A DNA stretch of 64,000 nt from Achromobacter pestifer (GTDB lineage Bacteria > Pseudomonadota > Gammaproteobacteria > Burkholderiales > Burkholderiaceae_B). The notes beneath the pieces were generated by a model. The model made no database searches. It saw nothing but the letters and a program-made list of their open reading frames with translations, and was not told where the DNA came from. Below are positions 22,013 to 55,222 of this stretch, piece after piece. Position 1 is the stretch's first letter; each line of letters starts with the position of its first letter. The DNA lies in assembly GCF_013267355.1 (NCBI RefSeq), contig NZ_CP053985.1, positions 5,580,001-5,644,000 on the forward strand, read 5' to 3'. The position numbers and the translations under genes are program-made.

Positions 22013-22072
22013 CGCAGCCGCGCCTGTCCGCAAATGCGGGTTTCATCTGACTGCAGGGATGCATCGCCTTCC

Positions 22073-22996: not shown

Positions 22997-23008
22997 GCCA
23001 AGGTCCAA

Positions 23009-24731: not shown

Positions 24732-25032
24732 CGGGTTCCCCTCACTCATTAGGCGTAAATGGTCCCAGCATTTGCGCGTCCGCGCCCAGCACGGCCGAGC
24801 ACCTGCAGTTGCAGGTCGTTCAGTAAGTTGAACAGGAAAGCTCGCTGTCTCGGCCTTTCTTGTTCGGTATCCCGAGTGCACGCGGATTAATCCATCTGCG
24901 CTAATGAGTTATCCATTCACGCGAGCTATAAACTCCGAAGAATCATCGCTGCTGCAAGAACCCCGTCCTTCGTTGTGCAAACTCGCGAACACGATCCAAG
25001 TTCGATAACACATCACTTCGGGAAACTGCCCT
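24732..25032. promoter_or_regulatory. Divergent promoter region with palindrome at 24801-24816
   Basis: A 301-base gap between the membrane-protein gene and the amidase-like gene. It contains a perfect inverted repeat ACCTGCA-GT-TGCAGGT at 24801-24816, 70 bases from the membrane-protein ATG. The remainder is AT-richer than the flanks. No gene is supported here. Confidence 0.45.
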
Positions 25033-26481
25033 ATGCCGCGCTGTCCATTCGCCGTTTGGAAACCGATATCCGGTGGCTCTGGTCCGCATCTGGGCGGACC
25101 CTTCAAAATTGTCCACCACACCACGGAAGGTCATAGCGCCGAAGATGCGATGGCGCTCTTCCAGTCAAAACGGTCCGACCCCCATTTCACTGTCGACGCG
25201 AGCCACATCTACCAACATGTGGACACCTCCGAGGGTGCGCGGGCGCTGCGCAACAAGGCGGGCGGCGTGCAGACCAATCGTGATTCGGCTGTGCAGATCG
25301 AACTGGTGGGCTTTGCCCACCTGCCGAAGGACATTGCCGCGCTGACCAACGTGGCTCGTTTGTGCCGATGGATCGAGCGCACGCACGGCGTGCCGCGCGA
25401 ATGGCCGTCGGGGCCGCCCAAGCCGGCCAGGAACGGCCATGACCCGGGCGACCACAATCGTGATGAGAAGACCTGGGACACACGTGGGGGGCACTATGGG
25501 CACTGCCATGTTCCCGAGAACACCCACTGGGATCCTGCCTACTCGGCACAAGAGGCAACCTTCGTGCTTAACGCCGAATTCGGCAGCGATGATTCACTGG
25601 TCTCGGCAGTGCCGCCGTCCCAGCCCACACGCCGGACTGCCGGCGCCGGCAAGATGCGCGCCGTGTCGACCATGCCCGACCATGATGACGTGATTCGTGG
25701 CGTGTCGGCGTATATCCGCGACCTGGCGTTGCCGCCACAAGCGTTGTCCCGATCGGTCGCAGTGCGCCCGATGAAACGCCGCGAAGGCAATCGGATGCTT
25801 GCCGGCCTGGCGACTGTCGCCGCGGACAAGCAAGAGGCGGCGATCAATGTGGGCAGCCTGATCGGCTTCGTCGCGGGACTCGGCGCGGACGAGAAGGACG
25901 ATGTGCAGTATTCCGTGCAACTCGCACAGCGCGCCGCCAGCGGAAAGTTCGATCGCTTCACGCAGACCCAGGCCTGGTACGGGGCGTACATGGAGGTGCT
26001 GGAGAACCTGGGGTGGGCAAGTCAGTCGTTGGCGTTTACATCGGTCGAGAACAAGAGCGGCACCTTCATGATGGACAAGGCGGCGTTGGAATTACTGGTT
26101 GCGGTGGCCACTGGTAACCAGTTGGCCATCTTGCGTGCGGGCGTCGAGGCCTTGAAAGAGGTGGCCAATGATGATGGTGCGATCGAGTTTTTTGACTTCC
26201 ACGCGTCGGAACAGAGCACCGGAAATTTCCAGTTGGGGGCCGTGGAACGCGAGGAGAACGACACGTTATCGATGGCGCTGGGGGCTTACTACTTCCACGC
26301 GGCCGACCAACGCAAGAAGTTCCTGTTTTTCAAATGGGGCGCCAACAAAATCAATTTCTGGGCGGCCGTCCAGCGTTTGACGCTGAACCGGTCTCTGTAT
26401 TCAACCGTGCGGGATGAGGTGAAAGCGAAGCTTGCGGACGCGCCTGCCTATGTGGTCGGCCTGAAGCTTGGAAAGCGATAA
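25033..26481 (+). CDS. Amidase_2/PGRP-like N-acetylmuramoyl-L-alanine amidase domain protein without signal peptide
   Basis: A 482-residue protein. Residues about 20-185 look like a peptidoglycan amidase (Amidase_2/PGRP fold). KIVHHTTEGHSAEDAM gives the first zinc histidine, HFTVDASHIYQHVD is the typical second strand, and GGHYGHCHVPENTHWDP carries late histidines in place of the usual third ligand region. The C-terminal 290 residues (from about 190) are not recognised and end VVGLKLGKR. No signal peptide is visible, which is unusual for a cell-wall enzyme. It is followed after 23 bases by the papain-like/hydrolase gene, so the two form an operon. Confidence 0.72.
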   Translation: MPRCPFAVWKPISGGSGPHLGGPFKIVHHTTEGHSAEDAMALFQSKRSDPHFTVDASHIYQHVDTSEGARALRNKAGGVQTNRDSAVQIELVGFAHLPKDIAALTNVARLCRWIERTHGVPREWPSGPPKPARNGHDPGDHNRDEKTWDTRGGHYGHCHVPENTHWDPAYSAQEATFVLNAEFGSDDSLVSAVPPSQPTRRTAGAGKMRAVSTMPDHDDVIRGVSAYIRDLALPPQALSRSVAVRPMKRREGNRMLAGLATVAADKQEAAINVGSLIGFVAGLGADEKDDVQYSVQLAQRAASGKFDRFTQTQAWYGAYMEVLENLGWASQSLAFTSVENKSGTFMMDKAALELLVAVATGNQLAILRAGVEALKEVANDDGAIEFFDFHASEQSTGNFQLGAVEREENDTLSMALGAYYFHAADQRKKFLFFKWGANKINFWAAVQRLTLNRSLYSTVRDEVKAKLADAPAYVVGLKLGKR

Positions 26482-26504
26482 CTGACGATAGGCGGGAGAC
26501 AACC

Positions 26505-28517: not shown

Positions 28518-28719
28518 TTGGGTAATGAGTGTCCAAGTCTTGCGGAATCGATAAAGCGATGCGCTGTCGACGCCTCGCTTTGTTTCTCGCTGATTAGTTG
28601 ATGATTGGTGGATGGCTATTTGCTAGCCGCTCGTTCAGTCATAAGCGCCACGCCGCGCGCGCCCGCGCGCTTTGGTCGTTGACGCTTTTGCCGAACTGGC
28701 TGGCGTAGGAAAGGCCGAT

Positions 28720-29432
28720 GCTGGCGCGCTCGCTTACAGATCACATGCCGCTGTACTGCCAGGAGAGCATCTTTGCGCGTGACGACCTGGCCCTGCCGCG
28801 GTCGACGTTGGGCCAATGGGTTGGCGTGTGCGGCGTACGCCTGCAGCCGTTGGTCGATGCGCTGCGAGCGGACCTGCTGTAGCATGGTGTGCTGCATGCT
28901 GACGAGACTCCGGTGCAGATGCTAGACCCAGGGAGCAGGAAGACGCACCGCGCCTATCTGTGGGCATACTGCCCGACAAACTTTGAGTCAGTGTGCGGTG
29001 TAGTCTATGACTTCGCCACCAGCCGCGCTGGTGAGCACGCAAGAGCCTTCTTGCTGGAGTGATCCGGGAAGCTCGCCAGCGATGACTTCTCGGGTTACAA
29101 GGCGAGCTTCGGTTCAGGCGTGACCGAGATCGGCCGCATGGCACACGCCAGGCGCAAGTTCTATGACTTGCATGCCAACAACAAGAGCCAAGTAGCCGAA
29201 CACGCATTGGGCTTCATCGGACTGCTGTACAACATCGAACGTGAGGTGGCGACGATTGCCCCCGATGACGGGCGCGGGATCCGTCAGGAGAAGGCCGTGC
29301 CGGTGGCCGAAGCGCTGCATGCCTGGATGATGGCGCAGCGCTAAAAAGTACCCGAAGGGTCGGCCATTGCCCGCGCCTTGGATTACAGCCTGAAGCGCTG
29401 GGTCGCACTGATGCGCTATCTGGAAGGTGGCG
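28720..29432 (+). pseudogene. Decayed IS66-family transposase (TnpC) remnant
   Basis: Translation of the forward strand gives stretches of IS66 TnpC: DDLALPRSTLGQWVGVCGVR, then HADETPVQMLDPGSRKTHRA, then DDFSGYKASFGSGVTEIG, MAHARRKFYDLHANNKSQVA and finally RALDYSLKRWVALMRYLEGG. In-frame stops interrupt it (after RADLL, after FLLE and after MMAQR). Both ends are missing: the N-terminal third is absent, and the sequence stops just before the end of the GlxA-type regulator gene. The 202 bases before it (28518-28719) hold nothing recognised. No terminal inverted repeats were identified. Confidence 0.85.
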
Positions 29433-41721: not shown

Positions 41722-42522
41722 ATGTCCGAACACCACCAGTTTCTGTGCCCCCGCGACATGCATTTGCCGCCGCCTGATTGGCGCGCGCTGGAAATCAAAC
41801 TGCTGGAAGGTGGATATGTGATGGAACCGCGCGGCGACGGCGTTCCGTATCGCGCGCTGTTGAACCTGAGCTTCGATTTGGCGAGCTTGAATGAAGGGTC
41901 GTACCAGTATCAAGAAGGCCTGCGTACGACGGGTGACGTGATCGCCATGTACGTGGGGGCAGGGTATCTGCCGGCGGAGATACCGATACGCCATAACGAC
42001 ACAATGGAAGAGGCCGTGGCGTTGCTGGCTGAGCACGGTATTACGCCGGGGGATCGGTATGCGGATAACGAGAGCAGCGACTGGAATAGCCCGCAGTACT
42101 GCTTGGGTCCGGCGGCTCGTGCCTATCTGACTGACGATACGCGGGCTTCTTATGATGCTGACCCAAAGAATTTTCCGTTGATGCTGCTGGCCTATGACGG
42201 CCCTGAGCCGCATGTGGCGGTGGGGGAGAATCTGTCCGAGCCTAGCTTGCCGGGGTCAGATGAACTGCTGGAATCCATGCCGCCGTTCGACTCGCATGTT
42301 GATTTTATTGGAGCGGCTTATGAGGATCCGGCGGCGCAGTGGCATTGTGCGGAGAATGGGCGCGATTTCCGGATACTGGAGTTGGATTGGCGGTACAGCT
42401 TGGCGATGGGGTTTCGGATGATTCGGACGGAATGGCTGGATGACGGCAGCGCGAGGGGGCTGGCTAGGCTGATCAAGGGGATGACCGGGCAGGCTATGGT
42501 TTGCAGCCATCGGCATTTGTGA
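41722..42522 (+). CDS. Hypothetical protein
   Basis: A 266-residue soluble, acidic protein beginning MSEHHQFLCPRDMHLPP. No signal peptide or membrane segment. Tryptophan- and tyrosine-rich segments (DWRALEIKLLEGGYVMEPRG, NSPQYCLGPAARAY, LELDWRYSLAMGFRMIRTEW) suggest a folded alpha/beta protein. No family recognised. It stands alone 98 bases after the Bug gene. Confidence 0.65.
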   Translation: MSEHHQFLCPRDMHLPPPDWRALEIKLLEGGYVMEPRGDGVPYRALLNLSFDLASLNEGSYQYQEGLRTTGDVIAMYVGAGYLPAEIPIRHNDTMEEAVALLAEHGITPGDRYADNESSDWNSPQYCLGPAARAYLTDDTRASYDADPKNFPLMLLAYDGPEPHVAVGENLSEPSLPGSDELLESMPPFDSHVDFIGAAYEDPAAQWHCAENGRDFRILELDWRYSLAMGFRMIRTEWLDDGSARGLARLIKGMTGQAMVCSHRHL

Positions 42523-42604
42523 ATGCGGGGTAGGGGATAGGCGCTGGGCTGTTATTCCCTTGTTCTTGCGAGACATAAACCTACGATTTGAATGAGAGGC
42601 GCCG

Positions 42605-42934
42605 CTAAGGTTGTTCCAGCTGCCACACCTCAACGACCCCGTGCGCGACGGCGCAGGGCGTTTGCGACACCATTGCTATAGCTTCGGCCATGTCGACGGC
42701 TTCGATGATGGCGAAGCCGGCCACTGGTAAGGGCGATTTCATGAATGGGCCGTTTGTTGTTTCGACCCGAGCGGCCTCGTGGTTGCGCACTTGCACTGAC
42801 TTGCCTGCAATGCCCATCAGTACACCGTCGTTCTGCAGTTTTGCGTCGTGCGCATGCGCTGCATTTCGGATGGCCTGTGGGGTGCGATCGTAACCCTCTT
42901 GGTCGCCATATCCGATCGTCACAAACTTTGGCAT
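42605..42934 (-). CDS. YciI-family protein
   Basis: A 109-residue protein of the YciI/DGPF-like dimeric alpha-beta barrel group: MPKFVTIGYGDQEGYDRTPQ, a Gly-rich VQVRNHEA strand, and a TTNGPFMKSPLPVAGFAIIE motif with the late GFxI-E. Many members assist small-molecule reactions, and the substrate is unknown. The frame is open to 43036, but AAGGAG lies seven bases before the ATG at 42934, which decides the start. Confidence 0.85.
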   Translation of the reverse strand: MPKFVTIGYGDQEGYDRTPQAIRNAAHAHDAKLQNDGVLMGIAGKSVQVRNHEAARVETTNGPFMKSPLPVAGFAIIEAVDMAEAIAMVSQTPCAVAHGVVEVWQLEQP

Positions 42935-43321
42935 GGATCGTCTCCTTAGCGAGGATGAGATTCGGGGCTGCCTGCAATTCCAATAAACGGAAAATGGTAA
43001 AGCATGGGATGGGCCTTTAGGCACCAGCCCGAGCATGATTTCTCACTTGGCGACGGATCCTCAGGTCTTGGAGACTTACTAGCCGCACTACAGCTTGAGC
43101 GGTGTTGGCGGCACAAGACGCTGCTTGTTCTGGTTGGCCTATCTTTTTGTGTTGCTCCAGCGCTCCGTCCTCGCTCTGCCCCTAAAGTAAAGTTCGGGTA
43201 ATATCTGTAGATATTTGTCACGAACTGGTTTGTTCGCGATCACTTTTACTGGGCGCTTAGATACTTTCTCGAGATTGTGAACCAACGCGAGCGATAGCTC
43301 GTACGCAAATTGGAGCAGAGC
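42935..43321. other. 387-base gap at the left edge of the defence-like island
   Basis: No gene is supported. Composition changes here from GC-rich chromosome to lower-GC island. The only clear structure is the nested inverted repeat at 43192-43225. The small open frames have no ribosome binding site. Confidence 0.5.
43192..43225. promoter_or_regulatory. Nested inverted repeat upstream of the nuclease gene
   Basis: ATATCTGTAGATAT (43201-43214) has perfect 6-base arms. It is flanked by a second pair, GTTCG (43192-43196) and CGAAC (43221-43225). It lies 97 bases before the nuclease ATG. A repressor site is the likely reading. Confidence 0.45.
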
Positions 43322-44407
43322 ATGGAGTTGATGGAAAAACTCAGAGGCCTTTCCGAAAAAATTCGTCAACAAGGCCCCGGAATCAAGACCGAAGAGGCGA
43401 CGAAGAATGCGTTTGTGATGCCGTTCATTCACAACATATTGGGATACGACGTCTTCGATCCCAATGAGGTAACGCCCGAGTTCATTGCCGACGTTGGCAC
43501 CAAGAAGGGTGAGAAGGTCGATTACGCGATTCTTCAGAATTCACAAATCCAGATCTTGATTGAGTGCAAGAAGTTCGGTGATCCGCTGAACATAAATCAC
43601 GCCTCTCAGCTGTTCCGCTACTTCCATGTCACGACCGCGAGAGTCTCCATTCTTACCAATGGTCAGGTTTATCAGTTCTTTACCGATCTCGATGCGCCCA
43701 ACAAGATGGACCAGAAGCCATTTCTGGAGCTTGATCTACTCGATATCGATGACTATATCGTCCCCGAACTGAAGAAGCTGACGAAAGGCGCGTTTGACCT
43801 GGAATCGGTCATCAGTGCTGCCGGGGAGCTTAAGTATCTAAGTCAGATCAAGAAGATTGTCGCCAATCAATTCGTTGCCCCTGAAGAGGATTTCGTCAAG
43901 CTGTTCGCTTCGCGGGTCTATGAGGGTGTGATCACACAACGAGTTCGAGATCAATTTTCCTCATTGACGAAACGTGCACTTGGTCAGTTTTTGAATGATC
44001 AAATCAACGAGCGACTCAAATCAGCCATGAATAGCAACGCCGTTGCATCGGTAGTGGCAGATACGCCGGAAGCTGAAGAGATCGGAGATGGACCAGACGA
44101 CTCCATTACTACGACGCTTGAGGAAATCGAGGGCTACCACGTGGTTAAAGCAATTGTCCGAGCCGTAGTCGATGTCAAGCGCGTCGTTCAGCGAGACACG
44201 CAAAGCTATATGGGCATACTTTTGGATGACAACAACAGGAAGCCCATTTGTCGTCTGCACTTCAATCGTGCGCAGAAATACGTGGGAATATTCGACGAGA
44301 ACAAAAATGAGACTCGGCATCCCATCTCGTCTATCGACGAAATTTACAATCTCTCCGACGCGCTTAGAAAAACTGTGGGCTCCTATGGGACGGATGTGGC
44401 AGCTTGA
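43322..44407 (+). CDS. Stand-alone PD-(D/E)XK nuclease, type I restriction HsdR N-terminal-like (COG4748-like)
   Basis: A 361-residue protein. The N-terminal 90 residues carry a PD-(D/E)XK core: TEEATKNAFVMPFIHNILGY (acidic helix), D67 in KVDYAILQ, and E81/K83 in LIECKKFGDP, with D-x13-E-x-K spacing. The SQLFRYFHVTTARVSILTNG segment is typical of HsdR N-terminal and COG4748 proteins. The C-terminal half is helical, then beta. No motor, methylase or specificity subunit is nearby, so it is not a complete type I system. GGAG at 43312-43315 supports ATG at 43322 over the TTG four codons earlier. Likely defence-related (inference). Confidence 0.8.
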   Translation: MELMEKLRGLSEKIRQQGPGIKTEEATKNAFVMPFIHNILGYDVFDPNEVTPEFIADVGTKKGEKVDYAILQNSQIQILIECKKFGDPLNINHASQLFRYFHVTTARVSILTNGQVYQFFTDLDAPNKMDQKPFLELDLLDIDDYIVPELKKLTKGAFDLESVISAAGELKYLSQIKKIVANQFVAPEEDFVKLFASRVYEGVITQRVRDQFSSLTKRALGQFLNDQINERLKSAMNSNAVASVVADTPEAEEIGDGPDDSITTTLEEIEGYHVVKAIVRAVVDVKRVVQRDTQSYMGILLDDNNRKPICRLHFNRAQKYVGIFDENKNETRHPISSIDEIYNLSDALRKTVGSYGTDVAA

Positions 44408-44474
44408 AGAGGGGCGCTGAGCCGTTTTTATCGCGTATCTAGATTAAGGGCTTTAGACGAGAAACTAGCTCACG

Positions 44475-44494
44475 AATTTAGCCTGGCACCTTTT
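44475..44494 (+). repeat. Degenerate copy of the hairpin repeat (right arm only)
   Basis: AATTTAGCCTGGCACCTTTT matches the right arm of the family (AATTGTAGTCTGACACCTTTT type) with three differences. No left arm is recognisable. It lies 68 bases after the nuclease gene. Confidence 0.4.
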
Positions 44495-44607
44495 CTTCCT
44501 ACCTTTTTTCTCAATCCGCATCGTCGGTTGGAACTCGGAACGACACGCGCAACCGCCGCCGAGAGAGATTTTTATCCTACAACCCCATAATTCATAAAGA
44601 GACTTTG

Positions 44608-45261
44608 ATGTCCCGTATCAGTATCGCCGCAGTAGTTGTCCTCACGCTTGGTGCTTGCACGACCGTCAAGCATGCACCCATTTCCCAAGATTCTCTGAGC
44701 AAGCTGGAAGGCAAATCCATCGTGTCCGCACGCTACGGGCAACCGGACTTCACGGCCTTTACCGCTGGCAAGGCGGCGTTCGCGATGCTTGGCGCCGGTG
44801 CGATGGTCACGGAAGGCAATGCCATCGTGAAAGAAAACGGCATTGAAGATCCTGCGATTGCTATCTCTGCCGGATTGCAAAACAAGTTGGCTAGCTTGAA
44901 GAACACGACGGCCGTGCAGGCGTCTGCCGTGGCAGCTAAGGATGATGTAGCGACCGTCGTCGCCGCCAGTCAAGGTGGCGATTTTGTTTTGGACGTGAAG
45001 ACGCTGACATGGATGTTCAATTACTACCCGACGGATTGGGCACACTACCGCGTTAGTTATACGGCGAGGTTGCGGCTGATTGACGCGGCGACAAAGACCG
45101 TGGTGGCGGAATCGGCCTGCGCCGGGGGGCAGGGGGATGACAAGAACCCGCCGACGAAGGATCAGTTGCTGGCGAACGGGGCGGGGTTGTTAAAGGAATA
45201 TTTGGCCAAGGCGGGGGACGCTTGCACGGAGGTGCTGGCGCGGGATGTTCTGGGGCTGTAA
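44608..45261 (+). CDS. Lipoprotein of unknown function
   Basis: A 217-residue protein with a lipoprotein signal (MSRISIAAVVVLTLGAC, lipobox LGAC). The mature part has a glycine/alanine-rich hydrophobic stretch (KAAFAMLGAGAMVTEGN) and a C-terminal alpha/beta region (MFNYYPTDWAHYRVSYTARL, then RLIDAATKTVVAESAC) resembling envelope lipoproteins that bind or sense cell-wall components. The frame allows a TTG one codon earlier; AAAGAGA precedes the ATG. It is followed by a copy of the hairpin repeat. Confidence 0.72.
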   Translation: MSRISIAAVVVLTLGACTTVKHAPISQDSLSKLEGKSIVSARYGQPDFTAFTAGKAAFAMLGAGAMVTEGNAIVKENGIEDPAIAISAGLQNKLASLKNTTAVQASAVAAKDDVATVVAASQGGDFVLDVKTLTWMFNYYPTDWAHYRVSYTARLRLIDAATKTVVAESACAGGQGDDKNPPTKDQLLANGAGLLKEYLAKAGDACTEVLARDVLGL

Positions 45262-45289
45262 TATTTTTTGAAGGTCTTCCGTCAAACTG

Positions 45290-45333
45290 AGAGGGGTGCT
45301 GCAGTTTCGGAAGCAGAATTGCAGTCTGACACT
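45290..45333 (+). repeat. Hairpin repeat copy A (left arm shortened)
   Basis: Right arm AATTGCAGTCTGACAC at 45317-45332. The left side reads GTG-CTGCAGTT, as if five bases (TCAGA) had been deleted from a GTGTCAGACTGCAATT arm. It lies between the lipoprotein and the membrane-protein gene. Confidence 0.65.
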
Positions 45334-45390
45334 ATTTTTCGTGTGATCTGATATTTTAATTTCGCACGCTACCAATTTTAAGGAATCTTC

Positions 45391-45867
45391 GTGGTCGAAG
45401 TTGTTGCACCCAAGATCGCAGATATATCAAGCATTAAAGGTGTCAGTGCATTACTTGCATTGCCGATGCTTTGCGTTGCTTATTTTCTCCAGACTGGTGC
45501 CGCGATTTCGTGGAGCGACTCAATTTGGTTTGGCCTGGGAGAGGGCCTACCGCCCGAGGCCGAGCTTCGAAGATTGATAGCAATCTTCGTGCTCAAGTCT
45601 GTATGGGCATCGTTCTTTGGAGTTGTCGGCTACGCCGTTCTTACCATGGTCCATATCCATGTCGACTTTCCGGTAATACAGCTAACGTCGGTTGTTCTTA
45701 TTGCATTCGCATTGTTTGGAATATTCTGTTCAGAGCTATTTGATCAATTGAAATTGATTGCGCCGTTTTGGTTTTACGGTCTTGTTGTTTGGGGTGTTTT
45801 TCTTTCAAGTATGAAGGAACAGCTTAATGCTGAGCGCCGCAGGATCGAAGAGGGAAAAAATAGATAG
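45391..45867 (+). CDS. Small membrane protein of unknown function
   Basis: A 158-residue protein with about four membrane segments (VSALLALPMLCVAYFLQTG, FVLKSVWASFFGVVGYAVLT, IQLTSVVLIAFALFGIF, FWFYGLVVWGVFLSSM) and a charged C-terminal tail (KEQLNAERRRIEEGKNR). The start is GTG at 45391, with AAGGAA five bases before. No family recognised. It sits between two copies of the hairpin repeat. Confidence 0.65.
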   Translation: MVEVVAPKIADISSIKGVSALLALPMLCVAYFLQTGAAISWSDSIWFGLGEGLPPEAELRRLIAIFVLKSVWASFFGVVGYAVLTMVHIHVDFPVIQLTSVVLIAFALFGIFCSELFDQLKLIAPFWFYGLVVWGVFLSSMKEQLNAERRRIEEGKNR

Positions 45868-45906
45868 TGAGGGTATTCGGCAAAAATCTCATTAAGTATT
45901 AGTAAA

Positions 45907-45951
45907 GGAGTCAGGCCGCAATTTAGCTAGCCAAATTGTAGTCTGACACCT
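45907..45951 (+). repeat. Hairpin repeat copy B
   Basis: Left arm GAGTCAGGCCGCAATT and right arm AATTGTAGTCTGACAC (45934-45949) pair imperfectly. The short loop TAGCTAGCCA is self-complementary at TAGCTA. It lies downstream of the membrane-protein gene. The remaining bases to 46100 show nothing. Confidence 0.7.
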
Positions 45952-46100
45952 TGTATCTTGGGGTGGGAGGAGGGGGCGGGCCCTCTGCCGATGTTGAATG
46001 GCCTGTCAAGGCAGCGGGCGCTGCGCAATAGTGGCCCGGCCGGAAATTGTGTGGGCCTACTGCTATTGAGCCAACGCCGATTGTTCGCACAGTTGTGAGC

Positions 46101-46835
46101 TCAATTGCTGCTCGTTGCGCCTGCTGGAAGTGGAGATGATGGGGCGGCATTCGCCTCCAGAAAGGTGAGGAGACGCTTGTACAAGCTCCGGCCTTCGCGG
46201 AATAGCCGTTCCCGGCTACCTGTGAGCGTCGCGCCGCCGACAACCATGCTCATCGCTGCAGTCCCTATCACGTGCGCAATGTGTACGAGAGAATTTTTGG
46301 AAGGTGGGTAAATCGCGGTGAACTCCAGTTCTTCGCCTCCCTCGTTGGGGGTTGATCGCGTATGGCGTGCAACGGCGAGCCGGTTTGGATGTGCGCCGCG
46401 AGCGATCAAATCTTCGTAGGAGGCCTTCAACTCGCGGTGCTCTTCAATCCCTTCTTTCTCAAGAAGCCTGAACGCCTCTGACGCGTGGACCTTTTTTTTG
46501 AAATCTCTCGGCGGATTTGTCCAGCGGTCGAAATGCTCATCGCCCCTGGAGACCACATATCCGAACAGCGCGGCTTCGAGCGCCGCACGTGTCGTCGCGT
46601 GGACCGCTGCCGTGTGGCCGCTAAAAGCTAGGTGGAACGCGCACATAAAGGTCGTAGTCGAAACTTGAATTAGTAGCTGCGGTGCGGGATTCCCATCAAT
46701 ATCAAGTGCAAGGACGGGAACCATAGTCTCGCAGTATTGCTCTGCCATTTTGAATAGTTCTTGCATTTGGGGATGCTGAAGATGTTCCTGAAATGAAGCA
46801 TTAGAGGTACTTATGAACCGCCGAAGCTCGGACAC
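46101..46835 (-). CDS. Hypothetical helical protein
   Basis: A 244-residue soluble protein, mainly helical, with a GTG start at 46835 preceded by AGGAAAA. Notable segments are MQELFKMAEQYCETMVPVLA, AAVHATTRAALEAALFGYVV and RWTNPPRDFKKKVHASEAFR. The Arg/His-rich helix pair recalls HEPN-like or DUF5677-like folds, but I cannot assign it. It is reverse strand among forward-strand island genes. Confidence 0.65.
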   Translation of the reverse strand: MSELRRFISTSNASFQEHLQHPQMQELFKMAEQYCETMVPVLALDIDGNPAPQLLIQVSTTTFMCAFHLAFSGHTAAVHATTRAALEAALFGYVVSRGDEHFDRWTNPPRDFKKKVHASEAFRLLEKEGIEEHRELKASYEDLIARGAHPNRLAVARHTRSTPNEGGEELEFTAIYPPSKNSLVHIAHVIGTAAMSMVVGGATLTGSRERLFREGRSLYKRLLTFLEANAAPSSPLPAGATSSN

Positions 46836-46877
46836 GGAATTTTCCTGATTAACGGTGGAAGGTACGGATTATTGCGC

Positions 46878-47080
46878 ATGGCAAAGCTCACGGGCGCGCA
46901 CAAGCGCTACATTATCCAGGCCCTGGCCTGCTGGGATACCCCCAAGTCAGGTCGCAGAGACTGTCAAGGACGAATTTGGGCTGGGCCCCGCATGCTGGTC
47001 GCGCAATACGACCCGACCAAGGTGGCCGGCCAGAAGCTGGCGAAGAAGTGGGCGGACCTGTTCGAAACCACGCGTAGAAA
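46878..47080 (+). pseudogene. Frameshifted DUF2280 (phage/terminase-associated) gene
   Basis: Reading three segments in two frames recovers a DUF2280-like protein: MAKLTGAHKRYIIQALACWD, then in the next frame PSQVAETVKDEFGL, then back to YDPTKVAGQKLAKKWADLFE followed by TTR. Two frameshifts, near 46930 and 46985, break it. DUF2280 genes are found in phages of this order, close to terminase genes. No other phage gene is nearby. Hairpin repeat copy C follows at once and replaces the normal C-terminus. Confidence 0.7.
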
Positions 47081-47140
47081 AGGGTGTCAGACTACAATTC
47101 CGCAGTTCCTAGGTGGCGAAATTGCAGTCTGACACCTTTT
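47078..47140 (+). repeat. Hairpin repeat copy C (most complete)
   Basis: Left arm GTGTCAGACTACAATT (47084-47099) pairs with AATTGCAGTCTGACAC (47120-47135), 15 of 16 positions, around a 20-base loop. It is bordered by AAAAGG on the left and CCTTTTT on the right, so the inverted repeat extends further. The T run makes it a possible forward-strand terminator. Confidence 0.8.
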
Positions 47141-47250
47141 TACCAAAGCGGCCATCCATCACATCAGATGGCTATTCGCGGCTAGACGATGCCCTTCGAC
47201 AACTGAGACTGATCCCGTTTATCGCCTATGGCTTGGGATTTGGAAAAAAG

Positions 47251-50200
47251 TCAAGATACCTCGGGCGGCCAAGGCTGGCCTGATGCAAGATCAGGGTGAC
47301 GCGGTTCACCCATCGGTCTGCCATACTCCAAGCGCCATTCCTCGAGTTGACCGAGAAGCATGAAAGCAGACTGCTGTCGTCTCTCGTCGCCAAGCGCCAT
47401 TTTGAACAGCAAGACTCGCAGTTCGTTTGACGTTCGTGCATGTTGTGTGAAGACGTTGGGACTTTGTCCTTCGGGTCGCCGTTCGACGAATGCCGCTTCG
47501 AGTTGAACCCAAACGCCCTGCGGTACTGGTGATGGCTTAGCGTCATCAATCAGGTTCAGATTTAGGGCGAAGGCTTCGGGCGTACCGAGCCGGGCCATTA
47601 CTTGCGAGAGTAGGTGCCGATTGTGTTCCGGTAGGTCCAGGTACATGACCGCAGCGATGTGCCAACTGGCGTAGCTCATGGTGCCGCCATTGCCGAGAGG
47701 CCCACGGTCGCCGGCCGCGCGCGCAGCGCGCCCGCGACGCATTCTCTCTACGTCGGAGCGGGTAAGCTTCACCAAGTCTGTCATATCTTCGGATGTTCCG
47801 ACTTGCGCTATTGATGAGGCCAGGTTCGCTTTCTCCTGGCCGCCGAAATCATCCTGTGCCAGGACGATATCGACGCTACTTTTCAGGTAGGCGCGAATGT
47901 CCGCCTTCAGTCCCTCATCGGCGATGCGCAGCGGCTCCACGTCAGGCCTGGCGACTCTGCTTAGAAGGCCGGTTGAAACCTTGATATCGAGCGGATCTCC
48001 GCTGGTGATGGAGGATAGAATGCCAGCCACTGCGACGTCGTCGGGAAGGGCGCGGAACACGGCTTCCAGCTGGCGCATTTTCTGCCACTCGAGTTCGTGT
48101 CGCACGTTAGGCTCCGCACTCTCCGCACCTCGCAATTCGCGCAGTGTCGCAAACACGCGCGCCGCAAGATTAGCGTCCGCGCGAGTAGCAATGATGGAAA
48201 CTATGCCTCCGAAATGCTCGTTCTTGAGGTCTTCGGTTTCGATACGTCGTAGGCATTTCTCGACGAGGCCGTCTGGAATGGCGGTTGCAAACGACAACCA
48301 ATACTCGTGCTCATAGAGGTTGCCTTCGGCAACCCGGTTCGCCACCCACTCACTCACCCAGGCAGGATCGACTCGGCGCAGATATTCGAGCGCCGGCTCG
48401 ATATGATGCGAGCCCTGATTGCGCACGTCGTCGCCGGACAGCGCCGCCATTGCATCTTTGATGACCTCGTCCAGGCCAGTCTCGCCGATTTCGATAAGCT
48501 TGAGCGCGGCTTGTAGGCGCGCGGGATGGTTGCTGGAGATCTCGATGAAATGGCGTATTGTGGCGAGGGTCTTGGGTCTGAGCACCGCTGGAAATTGGTC
48601 GGCGTTCCGGCGTGCGACCTCCTCAAATGCTTGTGCATCCATCGAATCGAGGATGGGGACCAGCGCATTGTCAGACCTAGTCCACATGAGGCCGGAGACC
48701 GCCGCGTTCTTCACCTCGGTACTGTCGTCCTCCGCTGCGAAGGCCGCGACCTCGCCGTCGGCACGATGATGCAGCAGTTCGGCTACAAAATCCGCACGCG
48801 CCTCCTCGCTCCAGCCGTGTACTTGCTCGCGCCAGTTCGGTCCAAGCGACGAGACCTGGATATCCGGCCAGAGCCGGTACGTGCTTAGTCGAGTTTGCCG
48901 GTCTTGGCCTGACAGAAGTGGCACGAGGATGTCGCCGAAGTCGGCCGCGCCAGTGGCGAGCATGGCAGCGACGGCATACTGACGAAAACTGCCGTCGCGG
49001 ATTGCGTAGACCGCGCGGATGCGCTCGCCGACGGTCGTGCGAACTGCACTCCAGACTTCTGTGCCACAAAGCCTTGCGAGCTCGCCGGCGAACACCAGGT
49101 CTACGGGTAGCGCCATCGCCACCAGCTTCCCACCGGCGCTGGTATTTCTCCTGTCGGTTTCGCCGTCACCGGTCTGCTCGGCAAACGTCTCGGCGATCAT
49201 GCGCAGCGGTTCAGCCCATGCTGGATCGTTGACGTAGTCAGCGGTAAAGCGGGTGGTCGCCTCATGGTCGTCATCCTGCAGGTCGAGAAGCTGCGCGCGG
49301 ACATCGAGTGCCGCGTAGTATTCTTGAAGCTGTTGATGCTCGAACAGAAACGCCGTTTGCGGGTAGTCGACGCGCTCAAGTACGTGGTGCGCCGTCAGCG
49401 TCGCGAGGACTGCTGGCGGCCCCACCGGCTCGATCTGCCCACGGCTCAGAAGCTCTCGTGCAACGAGGGCAGAAACGGCACGGGCTTCAGCCTCGGACGA
49501 CGTTACTGCTCCGCTGCGGGTCATCTGAGTTGCAAGGGCCTTCAGATAATCCGTTTGCCGACCGAAGATTGGTCCTGTCTGCAGGGCGTTTTTGTGTTCA
49601 TCTCGTTGTTCTTGCAGACGGAGAACCTGGGATAGGACGCCGATTTTCGTGGAAGGGATTGTAGCCTCGGCTTCGAATAGCGAAGCGACTTCCGAGAGGA
49701 TGAACGGCGTGCGAGTCAGCTCGTCGAGGGACGGGTCGGTATCAATGTGGGTACAGAGGTCAGCGCCTTTCGCGCCAAGACGGGCTGCAAGGTAAGCTGC
49801 CCGCTGTTCGCGTCGAAGGCGCAACAACCGCAGACGCAATGCGCCGGGAAGCGGCGGGGTTAAGTGGTGTGTGCGGGTTGCGACGATGATGCCCGCACTC
49901 GGGAAATCCCGCTCGATTTCTCGGAGTGCATTGTTCGCCTGCTCGGACTTCGCATCCGGGATCTCATTCCAGCCGTTCAACAAGAACAGGAAAGGTTCGG
50001 CCTGCTGCACTCGCGCGAGGTCGGCGGGCGTAACACGCTCGGCCTGAAACGCCGGCATGCCGGTAATGTATTCGAGTATTCCTCTCTGCGATGACGTCCA
50101 CGCCGGAAGTTCGACGATGAACGGTATGCCGGCGGCCCGTGTACGTTGTGCGAGCTGTATCAGCGTTGTGGTTTTTCCGCGGCCGGCTGGCCCTTCGAGA

Positions 50201-50859
50201 ACAATACGGCCGCTCTGCGACAGCGCTTGATCGATCTGTTCAAGCGACAGAACGTCGGCAGACTCTGCGCCGTCCGGCGCAAGCCGATTCGCCGTGAGTT
50301 CAATGAGCGGATGTCCTTTGGTCTTGCCGGCCCAGGTGCGCGCGACAACTTGGACCGCGCGCCTTATTCTGTCGATGAGATCTGCGATCTGCGGTTCAAC
50401 GTCGAGATCTAGGCGGAGGAAGCTTGCACGAAGCGAGGCGTTCTCTGGCATCATCATCAGCGTGATAATTTCTTCGCGCTCGATAACGTGAAGTTCGACG
50501 CCGTAGTCGTTATAAATTGCCTCTTCCCATCGCTTTCGATCGGCGTTGCCAATCTTGGCGGATGTCACGAAGATGAGCGCCCCTAGATCAGGAAAGTGCG
50601 CTTTGGCGGTCTCCGTGTCGTCAGAAATCTTCTTTAGCGTTGGTGTGATCGAAGCAGCCAGTCCCTTGCCGATTTTCTCCGGCGTCAGGCTCGCGGGCGC
50701 GTAGGCATCAAGGCCAAAATCCTTCTTGCGCTGGCGGGCGATAAGTTCGGGCCACCGCTTCTTGCCTAGTACGACCGCAAGTCCCTGAAAACGCATGCCC
50801 TCCTCTTGGGAGGAAAGCTCATTAAGAGCTCTTTCGATGTCGGTTCTCAGAATGGCCAT
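47251..50859 (-). CDS. NACHT-type STAND NTPase with nuclease-like N-terminal domain and HEAT-like C-terminus
   Basis: A 1202-residue protein. Residues 1-150 look like a PD-(D/E)XK/Mrr-like fold (FGLDAYA strand, then LGALIFVTSAKIG), but the usual E-x-K is not evident. Residues about 215-400 are a NACHT-type NTPase with Walker A GPAGRGKTTTLIQLA (about 223-231) and a Walker B region FLFLLNGWNEIPD with Asn where Asp is usual. Residues 400-560 hold the winged-helix part, including TAFLFEHQQLQEYYAALDVR. The rest is HEAT-like helical repeats that would sense a ligand. Such proteins in bacteria act as anti-phage sensors that trigger an effector. The TTG at 50877 was rejected in favour of ATG at 50859. 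Confidence 0.85.
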   Translation of the reverse strand: MAILRTDIERALNELSSQEEGMRFQGLAVVLGKKRWPELIARQRKKDFGLDAYAPASLTPEKIGKGLAASITPTLKKISDDTETAKAHFPDLGALIFVTSAKIGNADRKRWEEAIYNDYGVELHVIEREEIITLMMMPENASLRASFLRLDLDVEPQIADLIDRIRRAVQVVARTWAGKTKGHPLIELTANRLAPDGAESADVLSLEQIDQALSQSGRIVLEGPAGRGKTTTLIQLAQRTRAAGIPFIVELPAWTSSQRGILEYITGMPAFQAERVTPADLARVQQAEPFLFLLNGWNEIPDAKSEQANNALREIERDFPSAGIIVATRTHHLTPPLPGALRLRLLRLRREQRAAYLAARLGAKGADLCTHIDTDPSLDELTRTPFILSEVASLFEAEATIPSTKIGVLSQVLRLQEQRDEHKNALQTGPIFGRQTDYLKALATQMTRSGAVTSSEAEARAVSALVARELLSRGQIEPVGPPAVLATLTAHHVLERVDYPQTAFLFEHQQLQEYYAALDVRAQLLDLQDDDHEATTRFTADYVNDPAWAEPLRMIAETFAEQTGDGETDRRNTSAGGKLVAMALPVDLVFAGELARLCGTEVWSAVRTTVGERIRAVYAIRDGSFRQYAVAAMLATGAADFGDILVPLLSGQDRQTRLSTYRLWPDIQVSSLGPNWREQVHGWSEEARADFVAELLHHRADGEVAAFAAEDDSTEVKNAAVSGLMWTRSDNALVPILDSMDAQAFEEVARRNADQFPAVLRPKTLATIRHFIEISSNHPARLQAALKLIEIGETGLDEVIKDAMAALSGDDVRNQGSHHIEPALEYLRRVDPAWVSEWVANRVAEGNLYEHEYWLSFATAIPDGLVEKCLRRIETEDLKNEHFGGIVSIIATRADANLAARVFATLRELRGAESAEPNVRHELEWQKMRQLEAVFRALPDDVAVAGILSSITSGDPLDIKVSTGLLSRVARPDVEPLRIADEGLKADIRAYLKSSVDIVLAQDDFGGQEKANLASSIAQVGTSEDMTDLVKLTRSDVERMRRGRAARAAGDRGPLGNGGTMSYASWHIAAVMYLDLPEHNRHLLSQVMARLGTPEAFALNLNLIDDAKPSPVPQGVWVQLEAAFVERRPEGQSPNVFTQHARTSNELRVLLFKMALGDERRQQSAFMLLGQLEEWRLEYGRPMGEPRHPDLASGQPWPPEVS

Positions 50860-51193
50860 TTGATGGAATTTTGGCAAGCAGTTGGGCTCGGACTGAACCG
50901 GCAGAGTTTCCGTTGCTTATGTTAGGTTCTCTCCGTACGGTCGCATAAGGACGCACCGATACATCCGCGAACCAGAACAGAGCTACGAAGAGGGACGGGC
51001 TCATTTTGCCAGTATCCGCTTGGGGTCGGAAGCGGTCTGTCGTCATAGATGGCTCCCGGCCAATTGCAGCCACTGGTGGCGAGTTAAGCAGACGTTTAAA
51101 AAAACAAGAAGCGGACCAGCTTCTGCGGTCCGCTTGAGTGACAGGTTTGAATACGGCGTCTACGTAGGACTTCTGAACTATTTCCCCAGAAAG
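50860..51193. other. 334-base gap upstream of the NACHT gene
   Basis: Contains the likely reverse-strand promoter of the NACHT gene and the terminator of the small gene at 51194. No gene is supported. Apart from that terminator nothing is recognised. Confidence 0.5.
51095..51135 (-). terminator. Factor-independent terminator of the 73-residue gene
   Basis: Perfect 9-base stem AAGCGGACC (51109-51117) with GGTCCGCTT (51127-51135) and a 9-base loop. On the reverse strand it is followed by CTTGTTTTTTT, a classical U-tract. It lies 58 bases after the stop of the small reverse-strand gene. Confidence 0.8.
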
Positions 51194-51415
51194 TTACGGA
51201 AGCTGGCTAGAAATTCTTTCCAGATGCTCTTGTGCCTTCTTGATAATGGCAGGAGCACAAGCCAAACATATGTTCTTGCGGTTTCCTGGCACTTGATCAT
51301 ATGCGAAATGTCTTTCGCCTGCCATGATCTGGTGTTTTGAGCTCGCATCGCAAGTTCGTGTCCCTACTGCTACTTCATAACGGAAGCTTGATACGATATT
51401 TCGAGTCGCAGACAT
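51194..51415 (-). CDS. Small hypothetical protein with Cys pair
   Basis: A 73-residue ORF beginning MSATRNIVSSFRYEVAVGTR. It is supported as a real gene by GGAGAG placed correctly before the ATG and by a strong terminator 58 bases after the stop. Two features stand out: ICLACAP gives a C-x2-C pair, and the C-terminal helix KKAQEHLERISSQLP is amphipathic. It could bind a metal. No family recognised. It is on the same strand as, and upstream of, the NACHT gene, but separated from it by the terminator. Confidence 0.55.
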   Translation of the reverse strand: MSATRNIVSSFRYEVAVGTRTCDASSKHQIMAGERHFAYDQVPGNRKNICLACAPAIIKKAQEHLERISSQLP

Positions 51416-51526
51416 GCTCTCTCCAGTTCAGGAATTTTCTAACGTAATGCACTCCGCATTGCTGGCCAAAATATAGCTTTAAGAGCGCGCGAAGCCAATT
51501 CATTCACACGCAGGCCCCCCAAAAAG

Positions 51527-51569
51527 TTGTCAAACTTACTATTCTGGCAGCGAAATTGTAGTCTGACAC
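51527..51569 (+). repeat. Hairpin repeat copy D (left arm degraded)
   Basis: Right arm AATTGTAGTCTGACAC at 51554-51569. The left side GTTGTCAAACTTACTATTCT keeps most positions of GTGTCAGACTACAATTCT with extra bases. It overlaps the 3' flank of the 60-residue gene. Confidence 0.65.
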
Positions 51570-51575
51570 TGGAGT

Positions 51576-51758
51576 TTAGGCCCGAACGCTGGAGCCAGCC
51601 GCCGCTTCGAAGTACACCTTGCCGGTGCGACGACCGGCTGGCGAGGCCATTTCACGGGTCTCATCGTAGTGGAGGGCCGCGTGCAATTGCTTCGCGAGTT
51701 GCTCGTTTAGCCTCGATATCTCTGCGACGTCTGTGATCACCTCGAATACTTCGTCCAT
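51576..51758 (-). CDS. Small hypothetical protein (60 residues)
   Basis: MDEVFEVITDVAEISRLNEQ begins an amphipathic helical N-terminus, followed by a basic patch (AGRRTGKVYFEAAAGSS). GAGGAG lies five bases before the ATG, so translation is likely; a GTG two codons earlier is less likely. It is divergent from the HEPN/Toprim gene. No family recognised. A regulatory or antitoxin-like role is only a possibility. Confidence 0.5.
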   Translation of the reverse strand: MDEVFEVITDVAEISRLNEQLAKQLHAALHYDETREMASPAGRRTGKVYFEAAAGSSVRA

Positions 51759-51981
51759 TGGCACTCCTCTGCTGCGTTAGTGTGTTGTGCGTCCAGCCAC
51801 TTGTCAGAGAAAGGTTCAAGCAGCTAAAAAACTCGATGACTTTTCGTTGATGGATGCTCCCAGGCCGCGATTTCGTTGGCACGAGGGGTCCATAATTATT
51901 GTTGAAGGATATCGTCATGCAATGCCCTGGACGCGTTCTGGCCGGATAAAATCTCCACCCTATTCATTGACGGGGGTGGTC

Positions 51982-53121
51982 ATGGGATCGATGGTCCATC
52001 TTAGTGCCGGATGCATCCATATTGATTGGGGCAAGAATCGCGGGTACACAAACCACGGTGTGCTGTTTCAGAGCGGTGACGAAGCGGTAGGTCCGTATAG
52101 ATACATCGGCAGCGACAGCGATGAAGAAATCATTGAGGAGAAGCCATGTCTGTGTAGGTCGCTGGGTCGAATTAAACCGCGACTTGAAATTCTCGGATAT
52201 ACCCTCGAAGCCTGTCGCAGCTGGCTGCAAAGCACATTTGGTGAAGACGAAAATACTCGACCAAGCGCGGTTTTCGAGCAGTTAAGTGAGTTTTTGCGAT
52301 CATTGCCGTGGGAAGTGGATGGCCCCTATTTGGATTTCGATAGTGTCGTCATGGGGACCTTCGGCGTGTCGCTAGACACATATGTCGTGTTGCGGGTGCT
52401 GGCGGAGATTCCAGAGTTGGAGAACCTCCCAATACGATGGGAGTACGCGGACATCATCGAAGGCGGCTGGGTTTCTCCCGATGAAATCGTCCCCGGCTGC
52501 GGCGCGCAACGGTGCATGATCGTCACGGAAGGCTCTTCGGACGTGCATGTCCTGAAGCGAAGTCTGCAGCATCTATATCCAGATATAGCCGACTTTTTCG
52601 ATTTCATCGACATGAAGGATGGCAACCCATTCCCCGGTGTTGGAAACCTAGTGACCTTCTGCAAGGGGCTCGCACGCATTGGATACTCGGGGCACATGCT
52701 TATCGTGCTCGACAACGATACGGCGGGAAGATGGGCGCTCGAGACCATAGTTTCGTTGGACCTGTCACCGAACGTCAAAGCAACAACACTTCCCGTGTTG
52801 TCAGAGTTCAGTCAATTTAGGACCATCGGTCCATCCGGTAATGCTGTCGAAGATATTAACGGCAGGGCTTGTTCAATCGAGTGTTTTCTCGACTTGAGTG
52901 TCATCGATTCCGACCCCATCGTGCGATGGAAAAACTACAACGAGAAGCTGAAATCCTACCAAGGTGAGCTGGTGCGAAAGGACGACTATATCCGGGCCTT
53001 CCGTGACCAATTCAATCGAATGGACACCTACCAGACCAAAAAGCTCTATGTACTGTGGGAGCACCTCATTGCAGAGAGTGCCATGAACAGAGTGATTTTC
53101 CCAACCGAGGAGAATTGGTGA
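51982..53121 (+). CDS. HEPN/Toprim-associated protein (Toprim nuclease-like)
   Basis: A 379-residue protein starting MGSMVHLSAGCIHIDWGKN, the usual opening of the HEPN/Toprim N-terminal domain. The C-terminal part has a Toprim core: CMIVTEGSSDVHVLKRSLQH with the catalytic Glu at about 183, then MLIVLDNDTAGRWALETI with the DxD pair at about 244/246, as in OLD-family and DnaG-type Toprim domains. It presumably cleaves or nicks nucleic acid with metal ions. The frame is open from 51787, but homology begins at the ATG at 51982. Placed in the island beside the NACHT gene, so probably a defence protein (inference). Confidence 0.8.
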   Translation: MGSMVHLSAGCIHIDWGKNRGYTNHGVLFQSGDEAVGPYRYIGSDSDEEIIEEKPCLCRSLGRIKPRLEILGYTLEACRSWLQSTFGEDENTRPSAVFEQLSEFLRSLPWEVDGPYLDFDSVVMGTFGVSLDTYVVLRVLAEIPELENLPIRWEYADIIEGGWVSPDEIVPGCGAQRCMIVTEGSSDVHVLKRSLQHLYPDIADFFDFIDMKDGNPFPGVGNLVTFCKGLARIGYSGHMLIVLDNDTAGRWALETIVSLDLSPNVKATTLPVLSEFSQFRTIGPSGNAVEDINGRACSIECFLDLSVIDSDPIVRWKNYNEKLKSYQGELVRKDDYIRAFRDQFNRMDTYQTKKLYVLWEHLIAESAMNRVIFPTEENW

Positions 53122-54131: not shown

Positions 54132-54992
54132 TTACGCCGCCGCCTCTGCAGGTTTCGGCACGAAGAACCGATCCTTCAATTCCTGCAACCCAATCCTATC
54201 CAGCATTTCCGTCAGCCGCTCAGCCGCCTTCCTGCGCGGCAAATCCTTGTACTGCGCGATGATGAGCTCATTCTTCATCGAATGCTCCCATCCCACCAGC
54301 TCGGTCACGCTGACCTGATACCCATGCGCTTCCAGCTGCAAGCACCGCAGCACATTCGTGATCTGGCTCCCAAACTCCCGCGTATGCAGCGGATGCCGCC
54401 AAATCTCAGCCAGCGGATCAGCCAGCGCCTTTGCCTTGTTCTTGCGCAGCACCGACGCCACTTCCGCCTGGCAGCAGGGCACGACGACGATGTATTTGGC
54501 CTTCTTCTCCAACGCGAAATGAATCGCGTCGTCGGTGGCCGTGTTGCAGGCGTGCAGGGCGGTGACCACATCGATCGTGGCGGGCAACTTGTCCGACGTG
54601 ATCGAATCAGCCACCGACAGGTTCAGGAACGACATGCCGTCAAACCCCAGCCGCTTGGCCAGTTCTTCCGACGACTTCACCAGCTCTTCGCGGGTTTCTA
54701 TGCCGTAGATGTGAGAGCCGTTCGCGAGCGCCTCGGGCTGTTCCTTGAAGAACAGGTCGTACAGGATGAAGCCCAGGTACGACTTGCCCGCGCCGTGGTC
54801 GGCCAGGGTGACGGCGCCGCGTTGTTGTTGGACGTCTTTGAGCAGAGGTTCGATGAACTGGAACAGGTGGTAGACCTGTTTGAGTTTGCGGCGGCTGTCC
54901 TGGTTCATCTTGCCGTCGCGGGTCAGGATGTGCAGGGCCTTGAGCAGTTCGATCGACTGGCCGGGGCGGATGTCGTGGGTTTTGTCGGACAT
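54132..54992 (-). CDS. Class I SAM-dependent methyltransferase
   Basis: A 286-residue protein. The SAM-binding motif I is AVTLADHGAGKSYLGFILYD, motif II region IYGIETREELVKSSEELAKR, and a later DVVTALHACNTATDDAIHFA with VVVPCCQAEV, a pattern found in METTL25/RRNAD1-like and related RNA or protein methyltransferases. The substrate is unknown. The frame begins with TTG at 55004, and the ATG at 54992 (MSDKTHDI) is preferred; neither has a clear ribosome binding site. Confidence 0.85.
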   Translation of the reverse strand: MSDKTHDIRPGQSIELLKALHILTRDGKMNQDSRRKLKQVYHLFQFIEPLLKDVQQQRGAVTLADHGAGKSYLGFILYDLFFKEQPEALANGSHIYGIETREELVKSSEELAKRLGFDGMSFLNLSVADSITSDKLPATIDVVTALHACNTATDDAIHFALEKKAKYIVVVPCCQAEVASVLRKNKAKALADPLAEIWRHPLHTREFGSQITNVLRCLQLEAHGYQVSVTELVGWEHSMKNELIIAQYKDLPRRKAAERLTEMLDRIGLQELKDRFFVPKPAEAAA

Positions 54993-55222
54993 GGGGTAAG
55001 GCAATGCGCCCCGCGATGGGCGGGGCGCATAAGTAGGCGGAAAGCGTCAGTTTAACGAAAACGCCGCCGACGCTGGCGAACCGGGAAAACCGGCCCTGGA
55101 CTGTGCAGTATTTTGCGATCCAGGTTATCTGGCATGCGAGTAACATGCCCGATGCGATTGAGGCATGTCATGCATTTCTGAAAGCGCCTGACCATCAGGG
55201 CGGGCGCATGGAGAGTCGTCAA

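Follow-up and report, generated by a model that had tools for sequence, protein, structure and literature searches.

About 10 kb of the Achromobacter pestifer chromosome (positions 43,322 to 53,121 of the window, by which we mean the whole analysed stretch of 64,000 nucleotides) form an island of low G+C content (GC) that carries a nuclease, a NACHT STAND NTPase, a HEPN/Toprim protein, a phage gene fragment and a family of hairpin repeats. The site of this island is conserved among relatives and its cargo differs between them, and a statistical comparison shows that blocks of cargo meet at the hairpins more often than expected by chance. Within 43-54 kb the 1-kb bins have a GC of 0.49-0.61, versus 0.64-0.70 at 29-42 kb and 0.63-0.70 at 55-64 kb. 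The sides of the island are tctC-like and YCII-like genes on the left and methyltransferase-like and LysE-like genes on the right (names are readings of the translations), and the variable cargo begins directly beyond the YCII-like gene. Ten open reading frames (ORFs) of the island were scanned against Pfam, NCBIfam, PADLOC and PHROGs. The features are listed below.

42605..42946, minus strand: YCII-like gene (read from translation); left conserved flank in eight relatives, by tblastn in the loci of 38 relatives and by breaks in homology
43310..44407, plus strand: HSDR_N-type nuclease; HSDR_N 48.3 bits (cut-off 25.1), phrog_4225 endonuclease 4e-130
44475..44495, plus strand: degenerate right arm after the nuclease, read from the sequence
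44605..45261, plus strand: lipoprotein-type gene (read from translation); no family match
45298..45333, plus strand: hairpin 1; left arm degenerate
45391..45867, plus strand: 158-aa probable membrane protein (read from translation); no family match
45907..45950, plus strand: hairpin 2; arm matches
46101..46835, minus strand: 244-aa all-helical protein; phrog_36906 (unknown function), 4.4e-8, is the sole family match
46872..47074, plus strand: 5' piece of a phage-type gene (ORF 46872-47132); phrog_546, 1.5e-17, profile positions 1-69 of 162
47078..47141, unstranded: hairpin 3; near-perfect, with A/T-rich outer edges; the phage-type gene is cut off there
47251..50877, minus strand: NACHT STAND NTPase with an NCAB2 end; 1,208 aa
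51194..51415, minus strand: small 73-aa protein with cysteines; a relative in locus L099 (G006) is 50% identical; no family match
51526..51570, plus strand: hairpin 4, with a degenerate left arm; lies 6 nt past the end of ORF 51576-51764
51576..51764, minus strand: 62-aa ORF; no family match
51787..53121, plus strand: HEPN/Toprim_N protein; HEPN_Toprim_N 93.8 bits (cut-off 25)
54132..55004, minus strand: methyltransferase-like gene (read from translation); right edge marker of the slot

The match of the nuclease to phrog_4225, a phage endonuclease family, covers nearly the whole protein. The nuclease and the HEPN/Toprim protein probably act as separate single-gene defences in the source strain.

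The NACHT protein scores 85.1 bits with NCAB2 (cut-off 27) and 25.5 bits with NACHT, slightly below the cut-off of 26.7; a 98% identical homologue (P0005) has both as precomputed domains. Alignment with this homologue reveals a clean in-frame gap with 98% identity on either side, in which homologue residues 1075-1374 are absent, and the 300-residue gap is also seen against two further homologues. The window protein thus departs from the full-length architecture of its family (1,208 versus 1,502 aa). Homologues of ~1,500 aa are common: 664 proteins were found, and the best 120 of these are for the most part ~1,502 aa long and 78-94% identical in the searched N-terminal part (one is 100% identical). 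Relatives named Burkholderia, Thiobacillus, Halomonas, Nitrospirae and Rokubacteria (among P0005-P0124) are 79-84% identical over the first 215 residues, and such identity across these named taxa suggests that the family has been transferred widely and recently. A protein of this kind would sense a signal and then trigger its N-terminal effector; the window copy, which lacks 300 residues of the C-terminal half, may be altered or dead.

Several genes resemble no described family, and for 44605, 45391, 51194 and 51576 nothing significant was found in Pfam, NCBIfam, PADLOC or PHROGs. The preliminary description of this locus had suggested that these genes may be new components of defence, and this is the portion of its account that found no support: the lipoprotein-type gene has DNA matches in G012, G011, G037 and G006, and weaker ones in G038, where the rest of the island cargo is missing; nothing points to a defence role for 51194 or 51576; and the 46101 protein may have a HEPN fold, which is a weak lead. 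In other respects, its view of a mixed defence locus was largely right and is strengthened by the variable slot with defence cargo in relatives. The low-GC island with its nuclease, NACHT protein, HEPN/Toprim protein, phage gene fragment and hairpin family is borne out by the GC bins, the profile matches and the arm count. The internal deletion of the NACHT protein and the transposon-family origin of the hairpins go beyond that description, and neither was visible from the letters alone.

The phage-type gene fragment and the phage-type family of the nuclease could be taken to mean that the island is what is left of a prophage or integrative element with which the defence genes arrived. Among the ten ORFs scanned there is no integrase or phage structural gene, the window contains no tRNA, and megablast against 50,697 phage and 72,556 plasmid records gave no match (own-genome records possibly excluded). 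With neither a megablast match nor an integrase among the scanned ORFs, we reject a prophage or plasmid origin and regard this explanation as very improbable.

A second stretch of lower GC (0.54-0.64) is present at window 19000-29000 and includes an amidase-like ORF at 25033-26481 and a large protease/esterase-like ORF at 26505-28517 (both read from translations). No hairpin arm with at most two mismatches is found in or within 1.5 kb of 18251-25250.

Hairpins and a transposase unit

With up to three mismatches allowed, a 16-nt arm sequence matches eight times in the 64 kb, compared with 0.39 matches expected, and none of 100 shuffled sequences reached eight. Five arms are exact, all of them in the island at 45317-51569, and they form four hairpins, of which three have a weaker left arm. 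The majority consensus of 38 hairpins consists of AAAAAAGGTGTCAGACTACAATTT, a loop of variable length, and AAATTGTAGTCTGACACCTTTTTT, with one pair that is often G-C and not A-T. Rfam models at gathering thresholds give no match in the window.

Of 37 genus genomes, 20 contain an exact arm; it is missing from all 24 genomes of other families of the order, and the backward control pattern of the arm has no match in those genomes. When one genome per species was searched (84,980 species), the strict two-arm pattern was found in five stretches, all named Achromobacter; this exact pattern is absent from viral contigs. No hairpin was found in plasmids, and a single phage match is at chance level (E 0.7). 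A covariance model of the 38 hairpins has matches in 28 of 43 genus genomes, and counted by strand these number 16 in the source genome (G000) and reach a maximum of 49 in G003.

Y1_Tnp matches occur in 10 of the 43 genus genomes. At five of 18 such loci (L111, L112, L113, L114 and L121, in G007, G018, G021 and G023) the gene is flanked by an arm on each side; at the remaining 13 no arm lies in the flank examined (up to 1.5 kb), and both matches in G042 are among those that lack arms. The tnpA products of L111-L114 match REP_Tyr_transpos at 79.3-82.2 bits (cut-off 80; two of the four are slightly below), and the tnpA proteins carry HVH and YIELNP motifs with a conserved tyrosine. A tnpA unit of ~855 bp has four copies (two in G007, one each in G018 and G023) with the same sharp ends in four different flanks, and small changes in one copy. 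Its ends are AAATAAGGTGTCAGACTACGTTTT...AAAACGTAGTCTGACACCTTATTT, and one left end reads AAATGTGG. Used as a query against the genomes, the whole unit recovers units, several internal pieces and also bare ends (1-24/29 and 829-855 of 855); the bare ends occur in G003, G007, G010, G012, G013, G018, G021, G023 and G030. The hairpin model, none of whose 38 rows comes from a transposase locus, finds the hairpins beside the G018 transposase at 4.4e-14. These matches show that the hairpin corresponds to the two inverted terminal repeats (GGTGTCAGACTRC...) of a repetitive extragenic palindrome (REP)-associated (Y1/HUH) tyrosine transposase unit, minus the gene. Such tnpA units are present in four other species of the genus.

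A 1.29-kb "mobile unit" in G003, G030, G031 and G042 was a candidate proof that cassettes move. The HTH_Tnp_1 and rve matches of the G003 copy identify it as an IS3-family element, which has inserted into the arms, and it was therefore dropped as proof of cassette mobility. This element appears to target the hairpin arm, and does so at four sites in four genomes (L136:4086-5384, L138:6770-8063, L067 oriented 5859-7157 and L072 oriented 16032-17326).

Hairpins also separate small low-GC ORFs (SUKH_6 and DUF6911 among those scanned) near giant haemagglutinin-repeat genes, in a layout like that of toxin-immunity arrays. These loci are L136 and L137 (G003:C4:592000-631999), L138 (G030), L139 (G007) and L140 (G023), and the G003 array has at least 15 arm pairs, mostly near-identical. 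At a second hairpin site in the source genome (L141:9317-10506, G000:C2 at ~2.562 Mb), an Mrr-type nuclease has hairpins on both sides, and a 93% identical unit exists in G031.

The slot across the genus

The methyltransferase-like edge gene is present in 42 of 43 genus genomes. For 38 relatives (L065-L102; five loci are shortened by contig ends), the comparison took in as much as 20 kb of DNA on the side of this gene where the island lies. Low GC on this side, defined as a 2-kb bin under 0.58 no farther than 6 kb away, was counted by hand in 28 of the 37 relative loci listed, and the first kilobase on the other side of the gene has a GC of 0.62-0.72. The left flank (41722-42946) is also shared in eight of the 38 relatives, which are G030, G039, G031, G015, G003, G042, G041 and G032.

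Cargo between the two flanks differs among these eight. The nuclease is present at the same site in G030 and G032, and the 45391 block is shared with G030, where it also sits between two hairpins; the rest of the island cargo has no alignment with any of the eight. Homology with G032, where the arm is present, stops at the degenerate arm (window 44493, L097 10093). The preliminary description gave synteny of the same genes throughout the genus, with no effect on phages, as its refutation, and the comparison of relatives did not refute it: of 43 genus genomes three have a NACHT match, which in the two besides the source genome is just 28-35% identical, the HEPN/Toprim protein is matched in 2 of 101 relatives searched (the source genome itself and one of another genus), and the eight relatives hold mostly other cargo.

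In G003 (L069, oriented 7664-8882 and 12769-13043), the flank genes 41722 and YCII are present a second time, as a 5'-cut copy directly behind the hairpin. This copy is nearer to those of other species than to its own genome's copy, and was therefore probably acquired. Another 5' piece of 41722 in the same locus ends at a further hairpin.

Strong PADLOC matches are found at the slot in six of the eight relatives and include Lamassu, Gabija, DSR2, RT-Toprim, PtuA-like and PADLOC candidate families. Specifically, we observe LmuA (2.6e-88), LmuB (4.6e-130) and PDC-S06 in G030, GajA (1.9e-206) in G039, PDC-M11A in G031, Dsr2 (1.7e-143) in G015, RT-Toprim_I-C (9.4e-200) with PDC-S06 in G041, and PDC-M01A/PtuA in G032. 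Ten cargo proteins of relatives, chosen by us, were scanned singly, and eight matched at 1e-8; a 497-aa protein of G030 and an 820-aa protein of G003 had no PADLOC match when scanned in this way. The G042 proteins were scanned solely within a pool of 63 (62 from the slot and one from L141). Defence matches in the cargo of relatives, together with those in arm-free stretches of the slot described below, lead us to view it as a genus-wide defence slot.

Joints between cargo blocks

Breakpoints were analysed in nine loci, namely the window and the eight relatives that share both flanks. Of 114 homology breakpoints, 22 lie within 15 nt of an arm, compared with 3.4 expected at random places, and the largest value in 5000 draws was 11. 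Against a fairer, intergenic null, 13 of 40 breakpoints are at arms, with 5.6 expected and 11 of 5000 draws as high. Among 772 matches between arm-bearing loci, 19 stop in both loci at the outward edge of an arm (at one end in 16 cases, at both ends in three), and a control with shifted arms yields a mean of 0.007 one-ended and no two-ended cases.

These data bear on the possibility of an ordinary defence hotspot with passive hairpins, in which the repeats inserted at gene ends as bidirectional terminators, in low-GC accessory DNA that tolerates them, and hairpins coincide with junctions purely because both are intergenic. The placement of hairpins agrees with this idea: 27 lie between tandem, seven between convergent and two between divergent gene pairs (seven more are inside called ORFs), and avoidance of divergent pairs is likewise reported for REPs (PMC3733652). 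Also in its favour, GC at 20 other hairpin sites is lower than at 20 arbitrary sites (0.569 versus 0.653), and arm-free stretches of the slot are equally rich in defence genes. Passive insertion is opposed by the excess of breakpoints over the intergenic null, and by two places where the sequence switches to unrelated DNA within ~10 nt of the hairpin edge. At the first, the phage-gene fragment, DNA homology is over by window 47074 at the latest, 4 nt short of hairpin 3; at the second, the sole exact hairpin of G016 divides DNA that has no match in the other genomes searched from DNA that is conserved in nine. We consider passive hairpins possible, yet not the favoured explanation.

The three two-ended cases comprise two transposase units and one 1,068-nt unit in which a SUKH gene lies between two hairpins. 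Its copies in G030 and G003 are 98.6% identical, stop at the outer arm on either side, and have unrelated 60-nt flanks. Such a unit is what would be expected if the hairpins were the ends of cassettes, with cargo between outward-facing terminal repeats excised and inserted as a unit by a Y1/HUH transposase. The enzyme would act in trans, in strains that still have one, and would build arrays of hairpin-bounded genes. The occurrence of the tnpA unit in four different flanks and the arrays in G003, G007, G023 and G030 fit this scheme. What makes it unlikely is that this is the single cargo unit of its kind, the other candidate being the IS3-family element, and that among the 43 genus genomes a Y1 transposase was not found where the window's repeat form occurs, G042 apart. 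A shade more doubtful still is the stronger proposal that a domesticated-type tyrosine transposase family has turned into a cassette system, whose paired ends would bound single defence and toxin-immunity genes.

A specific link between hairpins and defence was rejected. Twenty other hairpin sites (94 ORFs), taken in order of covariance-model score and leaving out the slot, the haemagglutinin arrays and repeat hits at the same place, matched Drt8, GajA, GajB, MTase_II, RTasPDDEXK, Tmn, PDC-S31, mad3 and minor RT families at 1e-20, whereas 20 arbitrary sites hand-placed in the same genomes matched mad3 alone (4 of 107 ORFs). Fisher's test gives 0.010 for 6/94 against 0/107 with mad3 excluded from both, where six is our lower guess of the number of distinct proteins, as the scan does not tell which member of a pool matched. 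A matched control of 20 low-GC, arm-free 7-kb stretches is richer still than the hairpin sites, so we claim no link between hairpins and defence beyond that of accessory DNA.

We think it probable, from sequence comparison, that the island is one version of the cargo of a chromosomal slot that gains and loses anti-phage defence genes, with transposon-derived hairpins as shared joints. Species of the genus would gain and lose such genes beside the methyltransferase-like gene 54132-55004. The hairpins would be scars of insertion or recombination that provide a shared joint for unrelated blocks, and the blocks may be exchanged by homologous recombination between arms, or moved by the transposase where one is present.

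Several observations weigh against this account. No strong PADLOC match exists among the ten scanned ORFs of the window (best 8.5e-6). Y1_Tnp has no match in G000, and of the eight relatives that bear hairpins seven, G003 and G041 included, likewise have none. The excess of breakpoints at arms is much weaker under the intergenic null than at random places. An inward-edge control gave 0 of 772 and is not independent, as shared arms lengthen matches; match ends near arms in single loci are alike in both directions (64 inward and 63 outward). Apart from tnpA, one cargo unit has sharp hairpin ends on both sides, and no clean pair of hairpin-present and hairpin-absent sites was found. Finally, the arm-free stretches match 130 PADLOC families at 1e-20 in 97 ORFs (families, not proteins, were counted), with Hachiman, Gabija, AriA and PtuA among those listed. 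This control is not independent of the slot, because 19 of the 20 stretches were taken, in other genomes, from the side of the same edge gene where the island lies, and L070, L093 and L098 hold an arm elsewhere. Arm-free slot stretches are at least as defence-rich, and hairpins are therefore not needed for defence richness. Given this richness, the absence of Y1 matches in G000, G003 and G041, the IS3-family nature of the 1.29-kb unit and the lack of a clean pair, we take the hairpins to be real, to derive from a transposon and to be enriched at joints, and go no further.

Comparison with known systems

With a genus-wide slot, new anti-phage genes could be sought by their position, and the possible role of the repeat family in the exchange of defence and immunity genes is directly testable. 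A transposon-end hairpin at the joints offers one concrete candidate explanation of how single defence genes travel from island to island where no mobile element is evident. If a cassette system exists, hairpin-gene-hairpin units would move within and between the defence slot and toxin-immunity arrays, amounting to integron-like shuffling without an integron.

In integron cassette arrays, genes are also separated by a lineage-specific hairpin, which in attC sites has the core GTTRRRY / RYYYAAC. The GTTRRRY core is absent from the arm consensus, as read directly, and no search was made for an integron integrase. Immunity arrays of contact-dependent inhibition (CDI) and other polymorphic-toxin systems are another known arrangement. 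They resemble G003 and G030, in which hairpins separate SUKH-type genes beside giant haemagglutinin-repeat genes (domains matched), whereas the window island is without such a giant gene.

REP doublets forming hairpins (REPINs), which are associated with transposases termed RAYTs (PMC3116915), are similar in that two inverted arms form a hairpin, changes occur on both sides of the stem, and a dedicated Y1 transposase family is involved. Unlike REPINs, the Achromobacter repeats have few copies per genome and reside in accessory arrays instead of extragenic space at large; with 16 matches in G000 and at most 49 (G003), they fall short of the high copy numbers of REPs and REPINs. A REP has been defined by a GTAG tetranucleotide 0-2 nt 5' of a short stem (PMC6006769). 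No short GTAG-tagged stem of this type was identified, although no systematic search was made, and GTAG lies inside the long arm.

The closest arrangement is the TIRtron, in which a RAYT-like HUH tyrosine transposase gene lies between long terminal inverted repeats (TIRs), and single and paired TIR copies are dispersed (PMC3733652). Both have the same combination of gene and repeats, with repeats also standing alone, and in G007, G018, G021 and G023 we find a RAYT-type transposase with HUH and tyrosine motifs, bounded by repeats that also occur alone. Here the unit is present in several flanks, and the repeats are few, clustered in accessory arrays, and persist where no transposase is found. 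G000 does not combine a transposase with the window's repeats, and the absence of a Y1_Tnp match there leads us to file these repeats as orphan relatives of the TIRtron/TIR family. The label TIRtron for the unit is a candidate one, resting on the transposase and the repeat arrangement rather than on TIRYT signatures. So far as the main text of that paper goes, Achromobacter is absent from it.

Genomic islands of Pseudomonas include chromosomal defence hotspots (PMC12629846), which likewise have strain-specific defence cargo at fixed places in the chromosome. The site described here has the hallmarks of a hotspot, namely a conserved flank gene, differing cargo at the same site, and cargo rich in defence families. 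It differs in adjoining a methyltransferase-like gene and, in a subset of species, in having blocks that meet at a transposon-end hairpin. What is new is a slot of this known kind in Achromobacter, with transposon-end hairpins at its joints.

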